From NCBI GenBank assembly GCA_025517465.1, contig JAOPKE010000001.1:496001-560000 (forward strand): 64,000 nt of DNA, in the 5' to 3' direction. Under the pieces are notes generated by a model. The model had not been told where the DNA came from. It worked only from the letters and a program-made list of their open reading frames with translations, and searched no databases. This document shows positions 46,262 to 57,876 of the stretch, in pieces. Source of the stretch: Halobacteria archaeon HArc-gm2. GTDB lineage: Archaea > Halobacteriota > Halobacteria > Halobacteriales > Haloarculaceae. The position numbers were made by a program, and so were the translations under genes. Position 1 is the stretch's first letter, and each line of letters begins with the position of its first letter.

Positions 46262-48016
46262 TCACTCGCCGGTCCAGCGCGCGTCCGAGAGCGTCCGCTG
46301 GACGGCCTCCTCGCCGACGGCCTGGGCCAGCGTCTCGAAGCCGGACCGCTCGGTCGGGTCCGCGGCGTTGGCGACCAGCCGCGAGACGATGAACTCCGGC
46401 GTCGACTTGCCGACGGTCCGAAAGCGCGGCTGGTAGTCCACCTGTAGTTCCAGGTCCTGGCTCAGCCCCTCGGCGAAGATGCCGTCGGTGCGGGCCGCCT
46501 CGGGAAGGGGCTCCAGGTCGTCGGCGAGGTGCGTGACGAACACGCCCAGCGCGTCGCGTTCGACCGTGAGCGTGACGAGGCCGTGGAGCAGATTCGCGGC
46601 GCTGCCGGGCTCGGTGATGGCCTCGAACTCGTCGACGAGCATCAGCGTGCGCCCGCCGCTGGTCACCGGCGGGACGACCGATCGGAGCGTCGACTCCAGG
46701 ACCCCCGCGTTGAAACTCGCGTGGCGGCGGTGGAAGACGACGGTGTCGACGACGCTAACCTCTGCCTGGTCGGCCGGCACGGGCAGCCCCATCTGGGCGA
46801 GCAACTGGACCTGGCAGAGCGTCTCCAGCAGCGTCGTCTTCCCGCCGGAGTTGGCCCCGGTGAGGACGGCGACGCGGTCGCCCGAGGGCAGGTCCCGGCC
46901 CGCGTCGAGCCGGTGGTCGCCGACGGCGTAGCTGATCGGCTGCACCGACAGGCCGCCGTCGACGAGGAAGAGGTTCGTCGCGTTCTGGATGGCGACGACC
47001 TGTCGGTCCGCGACGAACGTCGGCCGCGTGAGGTCGAAGGCGACGGCGAAGCGCGCCAGCGAGACGTACAGCGCGACGTCGTCGACCGCCGTCACAGCGG
47101 CGTCGACCGATTTGCGCGCGTCGGCGAGGTCGTCCTCCAGCGTCGCGGCGACCGTCTCCTCGCGCTCCTCGACGGCCGAGCGGAGGTTCTGGACGAGCGA
47201 GCGAAGCGCGGCGTCGACGAAGTCCTGCGCGTCGGTCGCTTCCGTCGGTGTGGCCTCACGGACGCGGCCGACGTCCACCTCGCTCTCGTCGGTGACGTGG
47301 CGGACGAACGCGTCCTGGAACTCGTCGGGTCGGCGCGCGCTCTCCTGGAGTTCCTCGACCACGGTCATCGAGTCCGCCGCCAGGTCTTCGACGCGGCCCA
47401 GTTGCTCCCGGAGCCGGTCCAGTTCGTCGTCGGCGCCCTCGCCCACTCGGTCGCTCTCGCCACGCAGTCCGGCGAGCGCGCGGGCTGCGTCCGCCAGCGC
47501 CTCGGCGTCAAGTTCGGCCAGTGGCGCGAACACGCCCGACTCGACGCCCGTTTCCTTCAGCGCGATGGCGGTCCGGACGGCGGCGAGTTCGCCGCCACCG
47601 CTGTCGTACTTCGTGAAGGCCGCCAGCACCGTCCGCTGAGTCTCGTCGCCGAGTGCAGTCCACGCCTCGCAGGCCGTCTCGACCTCGTCCAGGCGCTCCT
47701 CCATCGCTTCCTGCGTCGGGAGCGGCGTGAGGACGCGGATGTCGTCCGCGGCCCGTTCGGTGACGGCGTGTTCCTCGGCCATCTGGAGCAACTCCTTGTA
47801 CACGTCGCGGGTGTCACGCGTCGCCAGCAGGTCCATCGCCTCCTTCCCCGTCGCCCGCCGGAGGATCCTGGTCGCCCGCCCGCGTGAGAGGCCGGCCTCG
47901 GTCAGCGCGCGCGTGTCCGTCGACTCGATGGCGTCGACGGCCCGCTCTATCCCCAGCTCCTCGGTCAGCAGATCGGACGTCTTCGGGCCGATGCCCCAGT
48001 ACTCCTCCAGTCGCAT
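46262..48016 (-). CDS. MutS-like ATPase (archaeal MutS2-related)
   Basis: 584 residues. Seen: an N-terminal helix-hairpin-helix region (YWGIGPKTSDLLTEELG, GLSRGRATRIL), a long helical middle, and a C-terminal ABC-type ATPase with Walker A LTGANSGGKTTLLE, the signature region SFNAGVLESTLRSVV, Walker B LMLVDEFEAIT and the switch histidine in VFVTHLAD. The mismatch-recognition domain and the MutS2 Smr nuclease tail are absent. Known: such short MutS paralogues bind unusual DNA structures, perhaps in recombination. Stands alone. Confidence 0.8.
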   Translation of the reverse strand: MRLEEYWGIGPKTSDLLTEELGIERAVDAIESTDTRALTEAGLSRGRATRILRRATGKEAMDLLATRDTRDVYKELLQMAEEHAVTERAADDIRVLTPLPTQEAMEERLDEVETACEAWTALGDETQRTVLAAFTKYDSGGGELAAVRTAIALKETGVESGVFAPLAELDAEALADAARALAGLRGESDRVGEGADDELDRLREQLGRVEDLAADSMTVVEELQESARRPDEFQDAFVRHVTDESEVDVGRVREATPTEATDAQDFVDAALRSLVQNLRSAVEEREETVAATLEDDLADARKSVDAAVTAVDDVALYVSLARFAVAFDLTRPTFVADRQVVAIQNATNLFLVDGGLSVQPISYAVGDHRLDAGRDLPSGDRVAVLTGANSGGKTTLLETLCQVQLLAQMGLPVPADQAEVSVVDTVVFHRRHASFNAGVLESTLRSVVPPVTSGGRTLMLVDEFEAITEPGSAANLLHGLVTLTVERDALGVFVTHLADDLEPLPEAARTDGIFAEGLSQDLELQVDYQPRFRTVGKSTPEFIVSRLVANAADPTERSGFETLAQAVGEEAVQRTLSDARWTGE

Positions 48017-48117: not shown

Positions 48118-48858
48118 ATGCGCCGCCGGTCGTTCATTCGCGCTAGCGCTGGTGGGATAGTGGCACTCGGGTTCCTCGCGGGCTGTTCGAGCGGTCAACA
48201 GCAGTCGCCGCCGCGACAGTCGAAAGTCTTCGGTGAACTGACCGTCTCCGGCGAGGCCATCGAGATTCCCCTCGTCGCGGACCCGACGGTCGAATCCCGG
48301 GCCGACATCTCACCGAACCAGGCACAGATCAGTGCGAGCCAGGCGGACACGAGTCCGTCGGTCGGACTCGACGACGTCGCACCGGTCGGTAACGCCCGTG
48401 CCGGCGGCCGCGGCGGCCGCGGCGGGCGGGGAGCCGGTGCGCAAGGCCGAGGGGCCGGCGGCTACAGTTCGGCGCCGAAGGGCCGACACGGCCGCGCCAT
48501 CTATCACGGCCACCCCGACGATGACGACGACGAGTGGCGCGCGGACCACGTTGACGACCTCGACAGATACCAGGCCACCCACCGGACGGCCGCCATCGCG
48601 TTCCTCGGGCCGACGGCGTCGTACTCGGAGGACCCGCCCGGCCCCGGGCCCGTCGAGTGGGACGAGACCTGGGAGAATCCCGACCCGAAGACGTTGACGT
48701 ACAGTAACCTCCAGAGAGGCTGGTATCGCGCCGGTTCGCACCTGACGGCCGAGAACGCGTCGCACGACTTCGGGTGGGAGGTCGTAGACTTCGAGGTCAC
48801 CGGGTCCGAGGGGAACTACCGGATAGAGAACCCCTGGAAGGTCTCCCCGCGCCTGTAA
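48118..48858 (+). CDS. Tat lipoprotein, Gly/Arg-rich
   Basis: 246 residues. Seen: a short twin-arginine signal with lipobox (RRRSFIRASAGGIVALGFLAGC), a region of glycine-arginine repeats at about 95-120 (GGRGGRGGRGAGAQGRG), a histidine/aspartate-rich stretch (YHGHPDDDDDEW) and an aromatic C-terminal half. Its stop at 48858 is directly followed by the GTG of the next gene, so they share an operon. The His/Asp stretch could bind metal ions. Its function is unknown; by position it may be the lipoprotein of the envelope cluster. Confidence 0.7.
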   Translation: MRRRSFIRASAGGIVALGFLAGCSSGQQQSPPRQSKVFGELTVSGEAIEIPLVADPTVESRADISPNQAQISASQADTSPSVGLDDVAPVGNARAGGRGGRGGRGAGAQGRGAGGYSSAPKGRHGRAIYHGHPDDDDDEWRADHVDDLDRYQATHRTAAIAFLGPTASYSEDPPGPGPVEWDETWENPDPKTLTYSNLQRGWYRAGSHLTAENASHDFGWEVVDFEVTGSEGNYRIENPWKVSPRL

Positions 48859-50457
48859 GTGGCCGTGTCCGATCTTCGCGTCCCGTCGCTGCGGTCAGAC
48901 CGGATGCTCCTGCTGGGGCTGACGCTCGTCGTCGCCTTCTGTAGCATCGTCTACGAACTCATCTACTCGGAGATGCTGCGGGTCATCTTCGGCGGGACGG
49001 TGCTCCGGTATTCGATCACGATCGGACTGTTCCTGTTCTCGCTGGGTATCGGCGCCTTCCTCTACAACTACGTCGACGACGTGGCGCCGAACTTCTTCCG
49101 TATCGAGGTTCTGCTGGCGCTCGCGGGACCGTTCGGGCTCGTCGGGATGATACTCGTCAACAGCGCGCCCGGCGTCGAGTTCCCGTTCAAATCGTCCATT
49201 CTGCTGGTGGCCTCGCACCTCCCGATCGTCGTCGTCGGCGTGCTGTCCGGCCTGGAGATACCGTTCCTCTCCGAACTCGTCGAGACCGAGCGCTCGGCGT
49301 TCAGCGAGGTCCTCGGCGTCGATTACTTCGGGAGTCTCGTCGGGACGGTGGTGTACGCGCTCGTCCTCTATCCGACCCTCGGACTCGTCTCGGCCATCTT
49401 CACGCTGGGATTACTGAACGCCGTGGCGGCGCTGGCGTTCTCGGTCAAATTTCCGAGCGGGAGTCGGGCGCTGTTCGCGGTGGCGCTCCTCGTGACGGGT
49501 CTCTACGGCGGCGTCCTCGTCCAGGCGGACGCGGTCGAACGTGAACTGACGACGACGTACGTCGAGGCCCAGATCGAGAGCGAATATCCGCCGGGCGCCG
49601 CCTCGGCCACGGTGACCGACCAGTTCACGACCCGACACCAGGACGCCGTCGTGTACGAACGCCGCCTCGACGACGTTCCCGGCCAGGAGACGTGCCTCCG
49701 GCTCGACATGGCGCTCCAGCTGTGCGACCGGTGGGTGGACTCGTACCACGAGGGGCTCGTCGACGTGCCGATGACGATGTATCCCAACGGGTCGAAGACG
49801 AAGGTGCTCCTGATCGGTGGCGGCGACTGGATAGCGGTCGACCACCTCCGGAAGTACGACGTGACAGTGGACCAGGTCGACGTGGACCGGGAGTTCATGA
49901 ACCGGACGAAGAACCACTCGTTCTTCGAGCAGTACCACGACGACGCCTACGAGTACGACCGCCTCGACACGACGGTCGGCGACGCCGCGTCCTACCTCCG
50001 CACGACGGACGAACGGTACGACCTCGTGCTGGTCGACCTGCCGGGCGCCCGGTCCGACGAGATGCTGCCGCTGTACTCGACGGAGTTCTACTCGCAGTTG
50101 CGCCAGCACCTGACCGACGACGGCGTCGTCGTCGCCTGGTCGTACTCGAAGTACGCGTTCCCCGACCACCACAAGGCCTACCTCAGCACCGTCCGTGCGG
50201 CCGGCTTCGAGAGCTACGTCCCCTACCACTCGTACGACGACCTGGACGGTGATTCCGACCTCGAGCGAGCCGAGGGGTTCTACGTCCTCGCACCGGAGCC
50301 GACTCGCCCGGTCCAGTTCGAGAGCGCCCCTGTCGTCGACAGCCAGCGCGAACGGACGGCCTACGAGTCCCGTGAGTGGCGCCCGATCCCCGAGTACCGC
50401 GGCGTCGAACCGAACAGCGTCTTCGACCCGAACTACGACGTCATCGTCGACTTCTGA
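48859..50457 (+). CDS. Membrane-bound spermidine-synthase homologue with altered active site
   Basis: 532 residues from a GTG right after the upstream stop. Seen: about seven membrane helices in the first 220 residues (MLLLGLTLVVAFCSIVYELI and on), then a spermine/spermidine-synthase-like Rossmann domain with LLIGGGDWIAVDHLRKY, VDQVDVDREF and LVLVDLPGARSDEMLPLYS. Relatives usually read GGGDG and DLPDP; here a tryptophan replaces the glycine and the second aspartate (the expected base) is missing. It therefore may not transfer aminopropyl groups. Bacterial relatives sit in envelope-stress clusters with DUF2617, DUF350 and PspA-type proteins. GTG 48865 is a possible alternative start. Confidence 0.75.
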   Translation: MAVSDLRVPSLRSDRMLLLGLTLVVAFCSIVYELIYSEMLRVIFGGTVLRYSITIGLFLFSLGIGAFLYNYVDDVAPNFFRIEVLLALAGPFGLVGMILVNSAPGVEFPFKSSILLVASHLPIVVVGVLSGLEIPFLSELVETERSAFSEVLGVDYFGSLVGTVVYALVLYPTLGLVSAIFTLGLLNAVAALAFSVKFPSGSRALFAVALLVTGLYGGVLVQADAVERELTTTYVEAQIESEYPPGAASATVTDQFTTRHQDAVVYERRLDDVPGQETCLRLDMALQLCDRWVDSYHEGLVDVPMTMYPNGSKTKVLLIGGGDWIAVDHLRKYDVTVDQVDVDREFMNRTKNHSFFEQYHDDAYEYDRLDTTVGDAASYLRTTDERYDLVLVDLPGARSDEMLPLYSTEFYSQLRQHLTDDGVVVAWSYSKYAFPDHHKAYLSTVRAAGFESYVPYHSYDDLDGDSDLERAEGFYVLAPEPTRPVQFESAPVVDSQRERTAYESREWRPIPEYRGVEPNSVFDPNYDVIVDF

Positions 50458-50458
50458 C

Positions 50459-50905
50459 ATGAACTACGACGTACTCTGCTTCGGCCACGACGTCCCGGAC
50501 CCCGACGCGCTACAGGTCTACGCTCGCGGGACGGTCCCGATTGCGGGCCACGAGTTCCGGTTCCGGATAATCGGCAGTTCACACTACGTCCGTGCGCCGA
50601 GTCTCGGCTTCGAGGAGATCGCCTCCTGCGAGGAAGCGACCGTCGCCGACGCCCGGACCGTCGCGCTCGACGAGTTCGGATCGACGGCGTTCGACTACGA
50701 ATCGGACGCCGTTTCCTGCAGGACGGAGATAGACGTCCGACCGATCGACGCGTTCCCGGACGCCTCGTACGACCTCGAACACGCGTTCGAACCGGGTGCC
50801 GTCACGGCCATCGACGTCGGCGACCGGTCCTTCGAGACCTGGCACACCTACACCGAGCACGACTGCGCCGTCTACACGGTGACCGAGTTCGACCGACTCG
50901 GCTGA
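50459..50905 (+). CDS. DUF2617-like protein
   Basis: 148 residues. Seen: ALQVYARGTVPIAGHEFRFRIIGSSHYV at about 17-44, FEEIASCEEA, and a late FETWHTYTEHDCAVYTVTEF. From memory these match DUF2617, where a hydrophobic strand, an I/LGxSH pattern and a W-H-x-Y box recur, usually next to the membrane spermidine-synthase homologue. It starts two bases after that gene's stop, so the two are co-transcribed. Biochemical role unknown. Its stop is shared tail to tail with the opposite gene. Confidence 0.65.
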   Translation: MNYDVLCFGHDVPDPDALQVYARGTVPIAGHEFRFRIIGSSHYVRAPSLGFEEIASCEEATVADARTVALDEFGSTAFDYESDAVSCRTEIDVRPIDAFPDASYDLEHAFEPGAVTAIDVGDRSFETWHTYTEHDCAVYTVTEFDRLG

Positions 50906-51514
50906 TCACCCGTAGATGTCGCGTCGCTCGGCGTCGGAGAGAGCGACGTCAGCGTCGGGGACCTGGAGGGTGCAGTACTCGCACTCGTCGGCTGTCGTCG
51001 ACTCGCCGACGGACACCGAGAGGCCGAGCACCGTGAGCACGCGCTCGCTGTGTCGCCGGACGACGGCGTCGGTCTCCCGGCCGCAGTTCTGGCAGAACTC
51101 CTGCTCTGTGGCCTTCGTCTGGTAGGAGACCAGCGAGTACCCGAACCAGCCCAGCGACGCGTACGCTTCCTCCCGGTCCTGACGGATCAGTTCAGCGGCG
51201 GCGCCGTCCTCGTCGGTTTCGAACGACTGCCGTGCGATGGAGTTCGCCGAGCCGTCGTCCCGCTCGACGACGAGTTCCAGCGTGTCTGCCACGGTGATAG
51301 AGTTCCGCTGGCCGTCGATGCGGAGTCGAACCGTGCCGTCGGACCCACCGACGACGACGGAGTTCCGGTCGCCTTCCACGGCGACCACGAGGCCGTCGGA
51401 GGCGTCGGTGACGTCGACCGATCCGCGCGTGCTCGCGACGGCAACGCTCTCGATGGGTTCGTCGATAGTCCTCGACTTCCGCTCGCCGACGACGCGGACG
51501 TCGTACTCGTCCAT
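50906..51514 (-). CDS. Beta-solenoid-like protein with C-terminal zinc ribbon
   Basis: 202 residues. Seen: an N-terminal half of short beta repeats (SVAVASTRGSVDVTDASDGL, GDRNSVVVGGSDGTVRLRIDG) like the DUF3060-type solenoid, then a C-terminal segment with FCQNCGRETDAVV and DECEYCTLQV, four cysteines that could bind zinc. No membrane helix or signal peptide. Three bases separate it from the upstream gene (51518-51787), so they form an operon. Converges exactly on the DUF2617-like gene. Confidence 0.65.
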   Translation of the reverse strand: MDEYDVRVVGERKSRTIDEPIESVAVASTRGSVDVTDASDGLVVAVEGDRNSVVVGGSDGTVRLRIDGQRNSITVADTLELVVERDDGSANSIARQSFETDEDGAAAELIRQDREEAYASLGWFGYSLVSYQTKATEQEFCQNCGRETDAVVRRHSERVLTVLGLSVSVGESTTADECEYCTLQVPDADVALSDAERRDIYG

Positions 51515-51517
51515 CGC

Positions 51518-51787
51518 TCAGAGCAGACTACCGTCGTCCTCGACGACGTCCTGTGCGTTCTCGACGGTGACGTCACCGCTCTCGACGGCGCTGGACTCGA
51601 CGTTGACGTCTTCGGATTGCTCGACGGTGACGGCGCCGCCCTTCACCACGACGTCCTGGGCGCTCTCGATGACGAGTTTTCCACCGACTGCGTCCGCCTC
51701 GACGACCACGTCCTCCGCTCCCTCGACGACGACGTCCTCGGTCGCGTTCTCGACGTACACGTCTCCACCGCTGACACGTTCGGTCAT
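51518..51787 (-). CDS. Small beta-repeat protein
   Basis: 89 residues built almost completely of short valine-rich repeats (DVYVENATEDVVVEG, AEDVVVEADAVG, AQDVVVKGGAVTVEQ), a pattern that suggests a beta-solenoid. It precedes a protein with a similar N-terminal part. The ATG at 51787 was preferred over a GTG at 51805. It has no signal peptide or membrane segment and is strongly acidic. Function unknown; perhaps a partner or substrate of the downstream zinc-ribbon protein. Confidence 0.55.
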   Translation of the reverse strand: MTERVSGGDVYVENATEDVVVEGAEDVVVEADAVGGKLVIESAQDVVVKGGAVTVEQSEDVNVESSAVESGDVTVENAQDVVEDDGSLL

Positions 51788-51944
51788 GCTGGTGACGTGT
51801 TCCACCGGGTGAATAGGCGTTTCGGGTCTGCGGTCTCATAGTGGGTTTGTAATTCTTTTTCGGTGGTTCTCCGTCGACGGTCGGTTCAGCCCGGATACAC
51901 GCTCGATAGCGTGTGCCCGACGAAAATGGTTCCAACCACCACTA

Positions 51945-54059
51945 TCAGATCTCCGAGCGCTTGATCAGGCAGTAGAGCACCAGGCCGGAGAGGACGACGC
52001 TGCCGTACACCTCCAGGCCAGCGAGCATGCGTGCGAGCGCGCCCTGGGGCCCGATACCGCCGTAGCCGATGGTGAGGAAGGTGATGTAGCTGAAGTGCAG
52101 GTTCTCGTAGAAGATGGCCTGTCCCGCCGGCGTCGCCAGCGCGGCAACCGATTCGGGTTGACCGGCGCCGGTGAGAAACCGCTGGCCACCGAACGAGTAG
52201 AGGAGTGCCGGGATCAGCGGCGCGAGCAGGAAGACGACGGCGATGCGATAGAGCCGCATCCCGTAGCCGCAGGTGACGCCGAGGAAGGCGTTCTCGGCGG
52301 CGCGGCCGAGGTTTTTCAGCCGCGTGCGAAGGTCGGTCGACCCGTCGCGCGCGATGTCGACGTACTTCTTCCGGGCGAACTGCTGGCGCTTCACCCGGAA
52401 CTCCCCGGCCGCCTTCATCTGGCCGGCGGCCGACGCCGCGGTCTTGGCCTTGAGATAGGTCCGTTCGATGGTCTCCGGCGTCATCGCCGTCGCGTGCGAC
52501 GCGTCGGCGAAGTTCTCGTCGAACTCGTGGAGGTTCCAGTCGTTGCGGTCCAGGTAGTCGGTGTGGGCCGAGAAGTCGAACTTGTAGCCGTCGAACTCGT
52601 TGAACTCCGTGTTACAGAACCGGAAGTAGTCGAGCAACTGGCGGTGGTCGTCCTCGACGTCCGCGTCCAGGGTCACGTCGCCGACGCTCGCCGTCGTGAG
52701 GTCGTACCGGACCCAGCCCGAATCCGGCTGGCGGACGCGACCCGATTTGAGGACGGCGTCGGTCAGGTCTACGTACGTCTCGTTCGTCACCGGGAGCACG
52801 TAGAAGGTGACGTGGTCGAACGACGCCCCCGAGAAGTCGGCGCGTGTCGCGAACTCGCTCCCGTCGAACGACGCGGACGTGAAGGTGGCGTCGTCGAAGT
52901 CGACTTCGTTCTCGAACCGGACGTTTGCGAACGAGGCCGCCTCACCGAGGTGGTTGGAGTCACCGCTGAACTCCGCGCCCCGGAACACCGCGGCCGATTC
53001 GAACCGGGCGTCGGCGAAGGTCGAATCGCCGACGAAGCGCGCCTCGTCGAAGTCGGCCTCCCCGCCGAACGTGACGGCCGTGAACGCGCTGTCCCCGGTG
53101 AACTGCACGCGTTCGAACATCGCCCGGCCGTCGATCTCGGCCTCCTCGAAGTTGGCGTCCCTGAACTTCGCGTCCCGGAAGTTCACGTCGTCGCGGAACT
53201 GGACGGCCGCGAACCGCGCGTCGTCCTCTAGCGACCTGGCGCCACCCTCGAACTCCGCACCCCGGAACACGGCGACGGCTTCGAAAGTGGCGCCGTCGAA
53301 CGCGACGTCCCGCAGGAAATCGGCCTCGTCGAAGACAGCCTCGCCGGCGAACTGCGCGCCGTCGAACGCGGCATCTCGTTCGAACGCGGTGGACTGGAAT
53401 CGGACCTGGCTCTCGAACGCGACGTTCGTGAACGCCGCGCTCTGGAAGGTCGACTGACGAAAGTCAGTCTCGCCGGCGAATGTCGTATCAGTGAAACTCG
53501 CGTTGTCGTCGAGCTCGTTCGACGTGCCCGCGAAGGTCGCCCCGCGAACCGACACGGTCGATTCGAACTTCGCGTCGTCGAAGTACGTGTCGTCACCGAA
53601 CGCCGTCTCGTCGAACCGGACCGGTGCGTCCACGGTCGTCCCCGTGAAGTCGACGTCGCTGTCGAACTGGGCCTCGAAGGTGTCCACGTCGCCAGTTATC
53701 TCGGAGTCGCTGACGGTCAGGTTCGTCTCGAACCAGCACTCCTCCAGGTCGAGGCCCGCGATCGTACACTCCTCGAAACGCAGCGGCAGCTTCACGTGGG
53801 CGTGGACGGCGCTGATACCGCCTTCGAACGTGCAGTTCCGGAAGACAACCGGATGATTGTTCTCGCTCGACAGGGTTTCGTAATCGAACTCGAGAGTGGG
53901 GAACTCACACCCCTCGAGGACTTTCTCGTCGGCGTCGCCGCGCTCGACGACCGCCACGAGCGCCGCCGTCACGTCGTCGTCGGACACTCCCGCTTCCTCG
54001 CGTTCCCGCCGCGTCAACTCGAGTATCGACCCGTCGCTCGACACCACCGAATCTGACAT
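51945..54059 (-). CDS. Pentapeptide-repeat protein fused to a K+-channel pore
   Basis: 704 residues. Seen: residues about 50-430 hold dozens of pentapeptide-like repeats with F or A/V at regular places (ADFDEARF, STFADARFESAAVFRGAEFS, and so on), which fold as a right-handed quadrilateral beta-helix. A helical linker follows, and the C-terminus has two membrane helices flanking a pore segment with the selectivity filter TIGYGGIGPQG. Known: TxGYG filters conduct potassium. A large cytoplasmic pentapeptide sensor on a two-helix pore is an unusual design. ATG at 54059 was chosen over a TTG. Perhaps the electrical partner of the envelope cluster. Confidence 0.8.
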   Translation of the reverse strand: MSDSVVSSDGSILELTRREREEAGVSDDDVTAALVAVVERGDADEKVLEGCEFPTLEFDYETLSSENNHPVVFRNCTFEGGISAVHAHVKLPLRFEECTIAGLDLEECWFETNLTVSDSEITGDVDTFEAQFDSDVDFTGTTVDAPVRFDETAFGDDTYFDDAKFESTVSVRGATFAGTSNELDDNASFTDTTFAGETDFRQSTFQSAAFTNVAFESQVRFQSTAFERDAAFDGAQFAGEAVFDEADFLRDVAFDGATFEAVAVFRGAEFEGGARSLEDDARFAAVQFRDDVNFRDAKFRDANFEEAEIDGRAMFERVQFTGDSAFTAVTFGGEADFDEARFVGDSTFADARFESAAVFRGAEFSGDSNHLGEAASFANVRFENEVDFDDATFTSASFDGSEFATRADFSGASFDHVTFYVLPVTNETYVDLTDAVLKSGRVRQPDSGWVRYDLTTASVGDVTLDADVEDDHRQLLDYFRFCNTEFNEFDGYKFDFSAHTDYLDRNDWNLHEFDENFADASHATAMTPETIERTYLKAKTAASAAGQMKAAGEFRVKRQQFARKKYVDIARDGSTDLRTRLKNLGRAAENAFLGVTCGYGMRLYRIAVVFLLAPLIPALLYSFGGQRFLTGAGQPESVAALATPAGQAIFYENLHFSYITFLTIGYGGIGPQGALARMLAGLEVYGSVVLSGLVLYCLIKRSEI

Positions 54060-54129
54060 AGACTGGTCTGTTCGGGACGAGAACAAAAAATTTCGGACTT
54101 CCGGCCCGTACGATTATCTGGGCGTGCGC

Positions 54130-54948
54130 TCACTCCATCTGTTCAGTCATCGCGACGACGTCGCTGCGGAGCGCCCCCGGATCGATGCCGAGATCCACTC
54201 TGACGACCAGGTCGATGCCGTCACCGGCCTCGCTGGTGATCGAGATGGTGTCCTCCTGCTGGTAGTTCGCCGCCGGGAAGGCCCCGCCACCGACGTAGGC
54301 GACGCCGTTGCTGGGCTTCCAGACGCTGACGAGACCGGCAACCGGGAGGGTGTCGGCCGGGATGACGAGTTCCCGCGTCCCGACGTCGGGGACGTCGACC
54401 GTCCGACTGATCTCCGGTGTCTCGTACTCGCCGCGGTACTCGTACACTTCGCCGCCGACGTCCGGCGTCGCTCCGCTGGGTTCGACTTCCCTGACGTTCC
54501 CCAGGTTCTGGTTGTCGAGTTCGCCCTCGAACCGGTCCTTCGCGAACTCGGATATGCGGTCGACGCCGGCCGCCGCGGTCGCCTCGCCGGTGAGGTTGAT
54601 CTTCGTCGCGAAGAAGGTCGCCAGGCGCCCGTCGAACTGTCCGCGCGTCTTCTTCGACACCGCGTCGCGGAGCGCGGTCTCCTCGTACACCTTCGTCGAC
54701 GCGTATCCCTTCACGCCCAGGCCGTACTTCTCGCGCTCGAAGGTCGCTCGCCGGGTGTCGGTCACCTCCCAGCCGTCGGGGCGCTCGTCCAGCGACGGCG
54801 CGTGATAGCCGTCGCCGAGGTTCTGACTATCGCCGCCCCCAGACGCGTCCGAGTCGCTCGATCCGAACTCGAACGGCGACGAACAGCCCGCGAGCGCGGC
54901 CAGTCCGCCGGCGGTCCCCACCAGTAGCCGTCGTCTCTCCCCGTCCAT
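54130..54948 (-). CDS. Tat lipoprotein, DUF6517-like
   Basis: 272 residues. Seen: a twin-arginine-like signal with lipobox (ERRRLLVGTAGGLAALAGC), a Ser/Asp-rich spacer and a mixed alpha/beta domain with YASTKVYEETALRDAVSK and FFATKINLTGEATAAAG. This resembles haloarchaeal lipoproteins of DUF6517 (low certainty). It is oriented like the channel gene downstream and separated from it by 70 bases. Outer-membrane-face anchor through a lipidated cysteine. Function unknown. Confidence 0.6.
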   Translation of the reverse strand: MDGERRRLLVGTAGGLAALAGCSSPFEFGSSDSDASGGGDSQNLGDGYHAPSLDERPDGWEVTDTRRATFEREKYGLGVKGYASTKVYEETALRDAVSKKTRGQFDGRLATFFATKINLTGEATAAAGVDRISEFAKDRFEGELDNQNLGNVREVEPSGATPDVGGEVYEYRGEYETPEISRTVDVPDVGTRELVIPADTLPVAGLVSVWKPSNGVAYVGGGAFPAANYQQEDTISITSEAGDGIDLVVRVDLGIDPGALRSDVVAMTEQME

Positions 54949-55044: not shown

Positions 55045-57876
55045 TCAGCCCCAGAAGGACTTCGTCCGCGCGTACTCGCGCTCCTGAGCGAGGATGTCGC
55101 GGTAGAACTCGTCCTCGTCCTCGCGGAGCTTGTTGATGATCCGGGCTGCGTTGTGCGGCCCGACCCCGCGGGCGGCCAGTGCGATGACTGCCTTCTTCCC
55201 GTGAGTCTGGACGAGGGACGCCGAGCGGTACGCCCGCCGAGTCATCTTCTCCTGCTCTTCGTCTTTGTCACCCGACTTGACGGCCGAGACCACTTCGTCG
55301 GCCCAGGGATTCAGTGCGGCGATGCGGGTCGACCCGCAGTCTGGACAGTCCGGCTGGTCGCGCACTCGGCTGACCTTCGTCGTGCGCTGCCAGTCCTGGC
55401 AGTGGAGACAGAACAGGATGACGCGGTCGTCCTGAATGCGCTCGCGAACGGTCTGGATGACGCTGGCGTCGGCGTGTTCCGGCGAGAGGAGTTCCCGGCT
55501 GGCGGATTTCCCGCCCAGTCCGATGGGCGTCCGGTCGCCGACGGTCTCCAGCCCGATAGTGCCGTCCTGGATATCCCGGAGCACGTCCTTCGTCGCCTCG
55601 ACGGCCAGGTCCTCGTGGAACACCTCGCGGACGGCCTCGTCGTAGATGGGCGTGTCTTCGAGCGCCGAGGCCAGCCTGTCGCGACCGAAGCTCGTCGACC
55701 CCTTGCCGCGCCAGCGCTTGAGCGTCCCGAACTTGGCGGCGACCTGCGCCAGCTTGAACTTCAGCGCGTCGGAGTTCTTGAGGCTGAGTTCGATGATCGC
55801 CTCGACGTGGTCGGGGTCCGTAGTTTCGAGAATCTCGACGGCGTCGGCACCGCTGAGGCCCTTCGGGAGTTCGAGTTCGATGCGGTACGGGTCGACCTCC
55901 ATCGCGACGGTCGACCCGGCGCGTTGACCGAGCAGCGCCGATAGCATCCGGCCGAGCGTCTCGTTGATCTTGTGGCCGAAGCATGCGTTGACCACCGCTT
56001 CCCGGCCGCGCATCTCGACGACGACGTCCTCGTCCGTGGGGAGCGCGTCTTCGTGTTTTTCGAGCTGTTCGAGCCCCGCGGTGATCGTCGGCGCTTCGGC
56101 GTCGTACCGGCTCTCCAGGTCCTTCGCGACGCGTTCCGTCGACGCGCCGCCCTGCAACTGGCTGCCCGCGACCCGACGAAGTTCACCGACTTCGCGTGCG
56201 ACGTCGGGCGGCACGGGAATCTCCTGGCCGACCCAGGATGGGACCTCGCCGGCGGGGTCCTCGATGGGCGAGACCGTCACCGTCTCCTCCTCTTCGTCGA
56301 TTTCGGTGATGCGCCACATCTCGCCGCGCTGGATGAACACCTCGCCCGGCGTGGCGAAGTTGACGACGAACTTCTCGTCGAGGGTACCGATCTGGTTGCC
56401 CGACGCTACGTCCTCGACGTCGTAGGTGGCCTCGTCGGGGATCATCGAGAGGTTCTGGTAGAAGTACTGCCAGGTCCCCTGGCGCTTCTCCAGGGTGTCC
56501 TCCTCCTCGTCGATCCAGATAACGCGATTCGATCCCATCTCCCGCACCACCTGTTCGAACTGGTCGACGGAGAGGTCGCGGAAGGGGTAGGCCCGCGTGA
56601 TTATCTCGTAGGCCTCCATCGCGGGAATCTCGCCGTTGTCCATGATCAGCCCCGCGACCTGATTGGCGACGGTGTCGAGGCTCCCGTCGTGGATGCCCGC
56701 GGGCTCGACGTCGCCGTCCATCGCCTGTCGAGTTATCGCCAGTCCCTCCAGCGTGTCGTCGGCGTGGGTCGTCACGACCGTCCCAGAGGAGACGAGGTCG
56801 CGCCGGTGGCCCGCGCGGCCCACTCGCTGGAGCAGGCGCGACACCTGTCGGGGGCTGCCGTACTGGATCACGTGGTCGACGTGGCCGACGTCGATGCCCA
56901 GTTCCATCGAGGAGGTACAGAGCAGCCCGTCCAGTTCTCCGTCCTTGAACGCGTCCTCGACGTCGATTCGGGCTTCTTTCGAGAGCGAGCCGTGGTGGAC
57001 GCCGATGTTCGTCCCGAGTTCCTTGAACCGCGAGCCGAGTGCTTCGGCTGTCTGTCGCGTGTTGACGAACAGCAGGACGGACTCGTTGGCCTCGATGAGG
57101 TCCGCGATGTAGCGGACGTGGCTCGCCACCTCGGCGTCGGTCACGAGTTCGCTCGCCAGTCGCTGGTCCGCCTCGGTGACGCTGGGCTGGACGACGTCGA
57201 CGTCCAGTCGACTCCCCACGTCCACCTCGATTATCTCGCAGACATCGCCGCCGGTGAGGAACTTACCGACTTGCTTCGGGTCGCCGACCGTCGCCGAGAG
57301 TCCGATGCGCTGGAAGGGGCCACTGAGTTCCTGCACCCGCTCCATCGCGACGGTCAACTGCGCGCCGCGCTTGGACGCGGCCAGTTCGTGGACCTCGTCG
57401 ATTATCACGTGTTCGACGTCTTCCAGCGCGGTCCGGAGCTTCGACCCGGTCAGCATTGCCTGGATGGTCTCCGGCGTCGTCACGAGCACGTCCGGCGGAT
57501 TATTGGCCTGTTTCTGGCGCTGGTAGTCCGTCGTGTCGCCGTGGCGTACGTCGATGCGCAGGTCGAGCGTCTCGCCCCACCAGTCCAGCCGCTGGCGCAT
57601 GTCGCGGTTGAGCGCCCGCAGCGGCGTGACGTACAGCGCGCCGATGCCGAACCGCTCCTCCCGGGCCAGTTGATCGAACACCGGCAACATCGCTGTCTCC
57701 GTCTTCCCAGTCCCCGTGGGGGCGATGACGAGGCCGTCCTTCCCCGCGGCCAGCGGCGGAATCGCCAGGCGCTGTGGCTCGGTCGGCGTCGAGAAGCCCC
57801 GCTCGGACAGCGCCGACCGGACGTCCTCGCCGAGCGCGGTGAAGGCTGCCTCCCCCGCCGTCACCCCGTCAGTCAT
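55045..57876 (-). CDS. lhr: Lhr-type superfamily 2 DNA helicase
   Basis: 943 residues, the usual size of an Lhr core. Seen: Q-motif TEPQRLAIPPL, Walker A APTGTGKTE, DEVH box IIDEVHELAASKRGAQL, motif III SATVGDP, motif VI QRVGRAGHRRD, a winged-helix and Lhr-specific beta domain after about 440, and a C-terminal region with a cysteine quartet (FCLHCQDWQ... CPDCGST) that could bind zinc. Known: 3'-5' translocase acting on branched or RNA-DNA structures in repair. Stands alone; the following small genes run in the opposite direction. Confidence 0.9.
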   Translation of the reverse strand: MTDGVTAGEAAFTALGEDVRSALSERGFSTPTEPQRLAIPPLAAGKDGLVIAPTGTGKTETAMLPVFDQLAREERFGIGALYVTPLRALNRDMRQRLDWWGETLDLRIDVRHGDTTDYQRQKQANNPPDVLVTTPETIQAMLTGSKLRTALEDVEHVIIDEVHELAASKRGAQLTVAMERVQELSGPFQRIGLSATVGDPKQVGKFLTGGDVCEIIEVDVGSRLDVDVVQPSVTEADQRLASELVTDAEVASHVRYIADLIEANESVLLFVNTRQTAEALGSRFKELGTNIGVHHGSLSKEARIDVEDAFKDGELDGLLCTSSMELGIDVGHVDHVIQYGSPRQVSRLLQRVGRAGHRRDLVSSGTVVTTHADDTLEGLAITRQAMDGDVEPAGIHDGSLDTVANQVAGLIMDNGEIPAMEAYEIITRAYPFRDLSVDQFEQVVREMGSNRVIWIDEEEDTLEKRQGTWQYFYQNLSMIPDEATYDVEDVASGNQIGTLDEKFVVNFATPGEVFIQRGEMWRITEIDEEEETVTVSPIEDPAGEVPSWVGQEIPVPPDVAREVGELRRVAGSQLQGGASTERVAKDLESRYDAEAPTITAGLEQLEKHEDALPTDEDVVVEMRGREAVVNACFGHKINETLGRMLSALLGQRAGSTVAMEVDPYRIELELPKGLSGADAVEILETTDPDHVEAIIELSLKNSDALKFKLAQVAAKFGTLKRWRGKGSTSFGRDRLASALEDTPIYDEAVREVFHEDLAVEATKDVLRDIQDGTIGLETVGDRTPIGLGGKSASRELLSPEHADASVIQTVRERIQDDRVILFCLHCQDWQRTTKVSRVRDQPDCPDCGSTRIAALNPWADEVVSAVKSGDKDEEQEKMTRRAYRSASLVQTHGKKAVIALAARGVGPHNAARIINKLREDEDEFYRDILAQEREYARTKSFWG

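Follow-up and report, generated by a model that had tools for sequence, protein, structure and literature searches.

Bacterial operons join seven-transmembrane (7-TM) homologues of spermidine synthase (SpeE) with PspA, DUF350, DUF4178 and lipoproteins; one variant carries DUF2617 and DUF4247, and another group includes a K+ channel (Ravi et al., PMC11237479). In halophilic archaea, AdoMet (S-adenosylmethionine) decarboxylase was reported absent from Haloferax volcanii and other halophiles; H. volcanii made agmatine and cadaverine, spermidine was not found, and the role of its SpeE homologue was left open (Prunetti et al., PMC5178350). Here, we analyzed a 64,000-nt stretch of the genome of Halobacteria archaeon HArc-gm2 (JAOPKE010000001.1, positions 496,001-560,000 of the forward strand; hereafter the window), in which the region 48118-54948 encodes a membrane SpeE homologue. 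We show that this gene belongs to a conserved five-gene haloarchaeal cassette comprising a lipoprotein exported by twin-arginine translocation (Tat; lipoA), SpeE, a DUF2617 protein, a solenoid/zinc-ribbon protein and a predicted pentapeptide K+ channel, with SpeE present in 22 of the 195 genomes of the order that we surveyed. We found no description of the cassette in the open-access literature, and papers on the H. volcanii proteins HVO_B0357 and HVO_0255 treat the SpeE gene alone, with no cassette context (PMC5178350, PMC6267482). For the question raised in 2016 by halophile SpeE homologues of the HVO_B0357 type, in cells without spermidine or AdoMet decarboxylase (PMC5178350), the cassette supplies a context of four fixed partners. 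One of these is a predicted K+ channel, and such cells rely on K+ for their salt-in physiology.

Among described systems, the actinobacterial DUF2617/DUF4247-DUF350-SpeE operons (e.g. CCP45394-CCP45395; PMC11237479) resemble the cassette in combining a SpeE that has an N-terminal TM region with DUF2617 and a small secreted or lipoprotein partner. They differ in that haloarchaeal carriers lack DUF350, DUF4178 and AdoMet decarboxylase genome-wide, lipoA is not recognized as DUF4247, and the cassette adds the solenoid/zinc-ribbon protein and the channel. The proteobacterial DUF4178-DUF350-7-TM SpeE-SpeD operons of Novosphingobium (L136) and Alteromonas (L146) encode the same type of SpeE at ~25-30% identity, but these copies keep the DxxDP motif and adjoin speD, with no annotated DUF2617 there. 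A third group, the PspA-AdoMetDC-ATP-grasp-K+ channel operons (AdoMetDC, AdoMet decarboxylase), likewise unites a polyamine-type gene, a K+ channel and a lipoprotein (PMC11237479); it has another type of channel ('intracellular ligand sensing') along with other enzymes and partners, and resembles the cassette in composition only.

An earlier note on this DNA, made from the sequence alone, had placed bacterial relatives of SpeE and DUF2617 in membrane-stress operons, in line with both published work (PMC11237479) and the bacterial SpeE operons that we observed among the loci examined. It had also described DUF350, DUF4178, AdoMet decarboxylase and PspA as missing. The first three are indeed absent from the window and from all 22 carrier genomes (0/22 for DUF350 and DUF4178 in a genome-wide search), whereas PspA is absent from the cassette only and is encoded elsewhere in 22 of 22 carriers. 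Given this distribution, the haloarchaeal cassette represents a variant of its own that falls outside the phage shock protein (PSP) operons. A K+ channel does not by itself set the archaeal version apart, given the bacterial operon group that also has one (PMC11237479).

A five-gene cassette is conserved across haloarchaea

Each cassette family was searched for separately in the 195 genomes, without conditioning on SpeE. DUF2617 was found in 22 genomes, a set identical to that with SpeE orthologues (full length, ~41-70% identity). Full-length lipoA occurred in all 22 SpeE carriers plus one further genome (G142). Of the 22 carriers, 21 had the zinc-ribbon protein, which also turned up in another genome (G190), and 20 had the channel. 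Both additional genomes look like carriers of decayed cassettes, because G142 retains lipoA followed by a SpeE stump of only the first ~40 residues (L137), and all that is left in G190 is a frame-broken zinc-ribbon gene (L138). The chance of identical SpeE and DUF2617 sets was 1 in 10^28.8 with genomes treated as independent and 1 in 10^11.3 at the genus level, although both figures overstate the surprise because the genomes are related. In nearly all of the 22, SpeE has the other four cassette genes as neighbours.

Linkage was further assessed in 50 named haloarchaeal loci (GTDB genomes), which overlap with the 22 and, having been picked via SpeE, show linkage rather than co-occurrence. They include Haloferax, Haloarcula, Halosimplex, Natrinema, Natrialba, Haloquadratum, Halorhabdus, Halorussus and others, as well as Actinarchaeum. 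The lipoA-SpeE pair was present in 50 of 50 loci and DUF2617 in 49, the exception being a contig end. At least four gene orders were found, with lipoA-SpeE-DUF2617 kept in all; 38 loci were complete, and in 26 of these all cassette genes lay on one strand. The gap between SpeE and DUF2617 had a median of 2 bp and was ≤20 bp in 46 of 49 loci. In the window, the lipoA stop is followed immediately by the start of SpeE, DUF2617 starts one base past the SpeE stop, and the plus-strand and minus-strand genes of the cassette are convergent. Distance matrices of the five families correlated at 0.85-0.94 across the named loci, much of which common descent alone could yield. That the genes stay linked while their order is reshuffled argues most strongly for a functional unit. 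The earlier note, which suggested a possible archaeal variant of a membrane integrity system, had named as grounds for refutation a lack of co-occurrence in other haloarchaea together with independent transcription. The survey shows co-occurrence and does not refute the note's reading, in which the role in membrane integrity is conjectural.

The SpeE homologue and its partners

The SpeE homologue matched the PF01564 Spermine_synth profile (68.6 bits; cut-off 22.9) and aligned with solved spermidine synthases (E 3.5e-17), and did not reach the aminopropyltransferase equivalog cut-offs of NCBIfam (NF002956, 275 versus 472; speE, 69 versus 250). Across 69 haloarchaeal copies, the donor-site residues Q261, Q287, Y296, H297, GGGD and D341 are invariant, as is the catalytic D393, which aligns with the catalytic Asp173 of the human protein (PMC12812037). 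The second Asp of DxxDP is replaced by Gly396 in all 69, leaving the motif incomplete; five of six bacterial 7-TM relatives keep Asp there, and the sixth sequence is incomplete. Likewise, C279 and C289, which flank Q287, are invariant in the 69 copies and absent from the bacterial set. A C279-C289 disulfide is conceivable, depending on the register of the hairpin. Weak actinobacterial SpeE matches, confined to the C-domain and outside any cassette, were not used.

No source of decarboxylated AdoMet could be detected in the host genomes: a profile search for AdoMet decarboxylase PF02675 gave 0 matches in 195 genomes (control positive in 8 of 14 genomes), and PF01536 gave none in the 22 carriers in a search that had no positive control. 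Putrescine-site residues have also been reported as lost (PMC5178350). The evidence strongly indicates that haloarchaeal cassette SpeE is no conventional spermidine synthase, and it is unlikely to make spermidine because of the Gly in DxxDP and the two invariant cysteines unlike bacterial relatives.

Mean lysine-plus-arginine counts in haloarchaeal SpeE were 2.0 for the N-terminus and 0.1, 1.5, 0.4, 5.3, 0.35 and 3.0 for loops 1-2, 2-3, 3-4, 4-5, 5-6 and 6-7, respectively. This alternation fits an N-terminus inside, in haloarchaeal and bacterial copies alike; with seven TM helices, the catalytic domain would therefore lie outside in both. Such a charge distribution hints at an outward-facing SpeE domain, an arrangement that would suit a role in sensing better than one in synthesis.

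LipoA carries an invariant Tat motif and lipobox and a C-terminal WKVSPR motif. Its ordered beta-rich domain, predicted with confidence, is broken by a disordered but conserved Gly/Arg-rich stretch, 'GRGATGRG...SSAP'. None of 18 members matched a Pfam family at E≤1, and no similar fold was found; identity with the DUF4247 lipoprotein was accordingly rejected. Three genomes of a single genus encode a longer lipoA paralogue (~370 aa) directly downstream of S-adenosylhomocysteine (AdoHcy) hydrolase; this is a small hint towards AdoMet metabolism and may reflect a single event.

The DUF2617 protein met the Pfam gathering score (24.7 bits; cut-off 22.3), and its Haloarcula hispanica orthologue is annotated as such. 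G-x-SH, SC and TxH motifs are common to the haloarchaeal proteins and a mycobacterial member, and H42, E53, C57 and H129 are invariant. Its predicted model is compact and beta-rich (predicted local distance difference test score, 94.6); no PDB fold matched at E≤0.001, and the best, MucB/RseB (TM-score ~0.23), was not usable. The protein is probably cytosolic, because no signal peptide was found. DUF2617, an uncharacterized family of mycobacteria and other actinobacteria, thereby gains an almost obligate partner. In bacteria it can persist alone, because in two mycobacteria (L150, L151) it lies between ruvC and yebC, accompanied by neither SpeE nor DUF350.

The solenoid/zinc-ribbon protein has DUF3060-like repeats as well as two CxxC pairs. 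The earlier note had counted two beta-solenoid proteins; both open reading frames (ORFs) are present in the window's genus, adjacent to each other, but in most other haloarchaea they form one ~315-aa protein. The pentapeptide protein (Pentapeptide_3, 166.7 bits; Ion_trans_2, 23.6 bits) is a predicted K+ channel judging from its two-TM pore and the TxGYG filter, present in all 20 copies aligned.

Cassette SpeE shares its GGGD(W/Y) motif with HVO_B0357 (PMC6267482), of which it is, by this motif, the likely orthologue; HVO_0255 belongs to a different SpeE-like family, and it was this gene that a hypochlorite screen hit (PMC5178350, PMC6267482). The link to H. volcanii rests on this motif, on gene numbers in papers and on a DUF2617 match obtained there as a control. 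COG1357 is the pentapeptide COG. It is given for an H. volcanii deletion whose gene number was originally HVO_B0354 and was afterwards amended to HVO_B0357 (PMC3017900, PMC3254005). These numbers would be consistent with a cassette that spans B0358 (lipoA) to B0354 (channel). With the cassette present in genetically tractable Haloferax species, the questions of SpeE and DUF2617 are both approachable by ordinary knock-outs.

Proposed function and alternatives

We tentatively favour a reading in which the cassette products form a single functional unit at the membrane, where a membrane SpeE-fold sensor or transferase, together with lipoA and DUF2617, would control the K+ channel. The SpeE-fold domain would no longer make spermidine and would instead bind AdoMet or a different adenosyl/sulfonium or polyamine-like molecule, serving as a ligand sensor or transferring a group to a non-polyamine target. 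LipoA would sit on the outer face beside SpeE, DUF2617 would be the obligate partner of SpeE in the cytosol, the solenoid/zinc-ribbon protein may act as a scaffold or relay, and the pentapeptide channel would be the output, its K+ conductance tuned under envelope or ionic stress. A narrower version, in which an outward-facing SpeE-fold sensor (or surface transferase) with the lipoprotein and DUF2617 gates the channel in cells without spermidine, is unlikely, albeit one that, if true, would represent a new kind of ion-conductance control system.

Several observations weigh against these proposals. The channel is missing from 2 of the 22 genomes and from some named loci, and may be a dispensable output of the cassette. 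The SpeE topology comes from hydropathy and charge counts only, and one re-entrant helix would reverse it. Moreover, H. volcanii deletions gave no growth defect in either report (PMC3017900, PMC3254005, PMC5178350).

It is somewhat unlikely that SpeE is an active AdoMet-dependent methyl- or aminocarboxypropyl-transferase facing the cytosol, which would modify a lipid, lipoA or a small amine, with DUF2617 processing the product and the channel merely a stress-related neighbour. The invariant donor site and catalytic Asp would suit such an enzyme, as would the availability of AdoMet but not of its decarboxylated form, the lipoA paralogue adjoining AdoHcy hydrolase in one genus, and the invariant His and Cys of DUF2617, which has been predicted to be enzymatic (PMC11237479). 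Given seven TM helices, however, the charge distribution puts the domain on the outer side, and this reading has to accommodate the reported loss of putrescine-site residues (PMC5178350).

A true aminopropyltransferase, making a polyamine from imported or unconventional decarboxylated AdoMet, appears improbable. Family membership and the retained general base agree with it, and HVO_B0357 has been modelled as such (PMC6267482). Nevertheless, AdoMet decarboxylase is absent from the genomes surveyed, as reported before (PMC5178350), PF01536 was not found in the carriers by a search without a positive control, the second Asp of DxxDP is uniformly replaced, and putrescine residues are not conserved in a setting where H. 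volcanii has no spermidine (PMC5178350).

We are similarly doubtful that the cassette acts as a mobile accessory unit carried by plasmids, for example an anti-virus defence with a membrane-channel effector. Its presence is patchy, with one congener lacking it, several haloarchaeal plasmids carry copies, the K+ channel is a possible effector, and the pentapeptide part weakly resembles HalA of NCBIfam. The HalA score was only 19 against a cut-off of 250, however, and PADLOC returned 0 matches for seven proteins, leading us to reject a known anti-phage defence system; in the window's genus the cassette occupies a stable chromosomal site beside MutS-like and Lhr genes, and bacterial relatives lie in polyamine/PspA operons (PMC11237479). 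Adjacency by chance or genome-order inertia, to which the conservation of flanking genes within the window's genus might point, is contradicted by the survey and extremely improbable, given that linkage persists while flanks differ and internal order changes across families, and that independent searches returned identical SpeE and DUF2617 genome sets.

Gene content of the window and side observations

ORF and profile analysis recovered every gene that the earlier note had listed, each at its position (Table 1).

Table 1. Features of the cassette region, its flanks and the lipoA paralogue loci (window coordinates unless a locus is given).
Feature	Position	Strand	Basis or remark
Flanking MutS-like ATPase	46262-48016	-	divergent from lipoA
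lipoA, Tat lipoprotein	48118-48858	+	ORF; RR motif, LAGC lipobox
Membrane SpeE homologue, 7-TM + spermidine-synthase fold	48859-50457	+	Spermine_synth profile; core cassette gene
CLRLDMALQLC hairpin of SpeE (C279, Q287, C289)	49693-49725	+	alignment of 69 haloarchaeal copies
DLPGA of SpeE (Asp393, Gly396)	50035-50049	+	alignment of 69; human Asp173 per PMC12812037
DUF2617 protein	50459-50905	+	Pfam profile
Solenoid/zinc-ribbon protein, C-terminal part	50906-51514	-	CxxC at 141/144 and 178/181
Small ORF, N-terminal beta-solenoid part	51518-51805	-	start GTG 51805 or ATG 51787
Pentapeptide-repeat protein, predicted C-terminal two-TM K+ channel	51945-54059	-	Pfam profiles; frame open from TTG 54086
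K+ selectivity filter TIGYG of channel	52059-52073	-	alignment of 20 copies
lipoB, second lipoprotein	54130-54948	-	ORF; outside cassette
Flanking Lhr-type helicase	55045-57876	-	flank
lipoA paralogue + S-adenosylhomocysteine hydrolase	L139:4749-7245; L140:4962-7570; L142:6563-9965	same strand	

The inclusion of lipoB in the cluster was not borne out. Like the Lhr and MutS-like genes, lipoB is not conserved outside the genus; it is missing from all cassette loci examined and, at the same place, even from three congeners. LipoB had no Pfam or NCBIfam match and, from its absence between the channel and Lhr genes in these congeners, is apparently a genome-specific insertion. The MutS-domain-V ATPase resembles the lysine 5,6-aminomutase reactivase KamC, scoring 83 bits, below the cut-off of 300.

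The same genome encodes a second, different membrane SpeE-like protein of 602 aa (G000:C14:107209-107559; L002), which is probably HVO_0255-like; distant SpeE-like matches of this sort are common across the order. Finally, one replicon (G114:C2) carries two nearly identical cassettes (L041, L042), one of which has its SpeE broken by a frameshift or stop.

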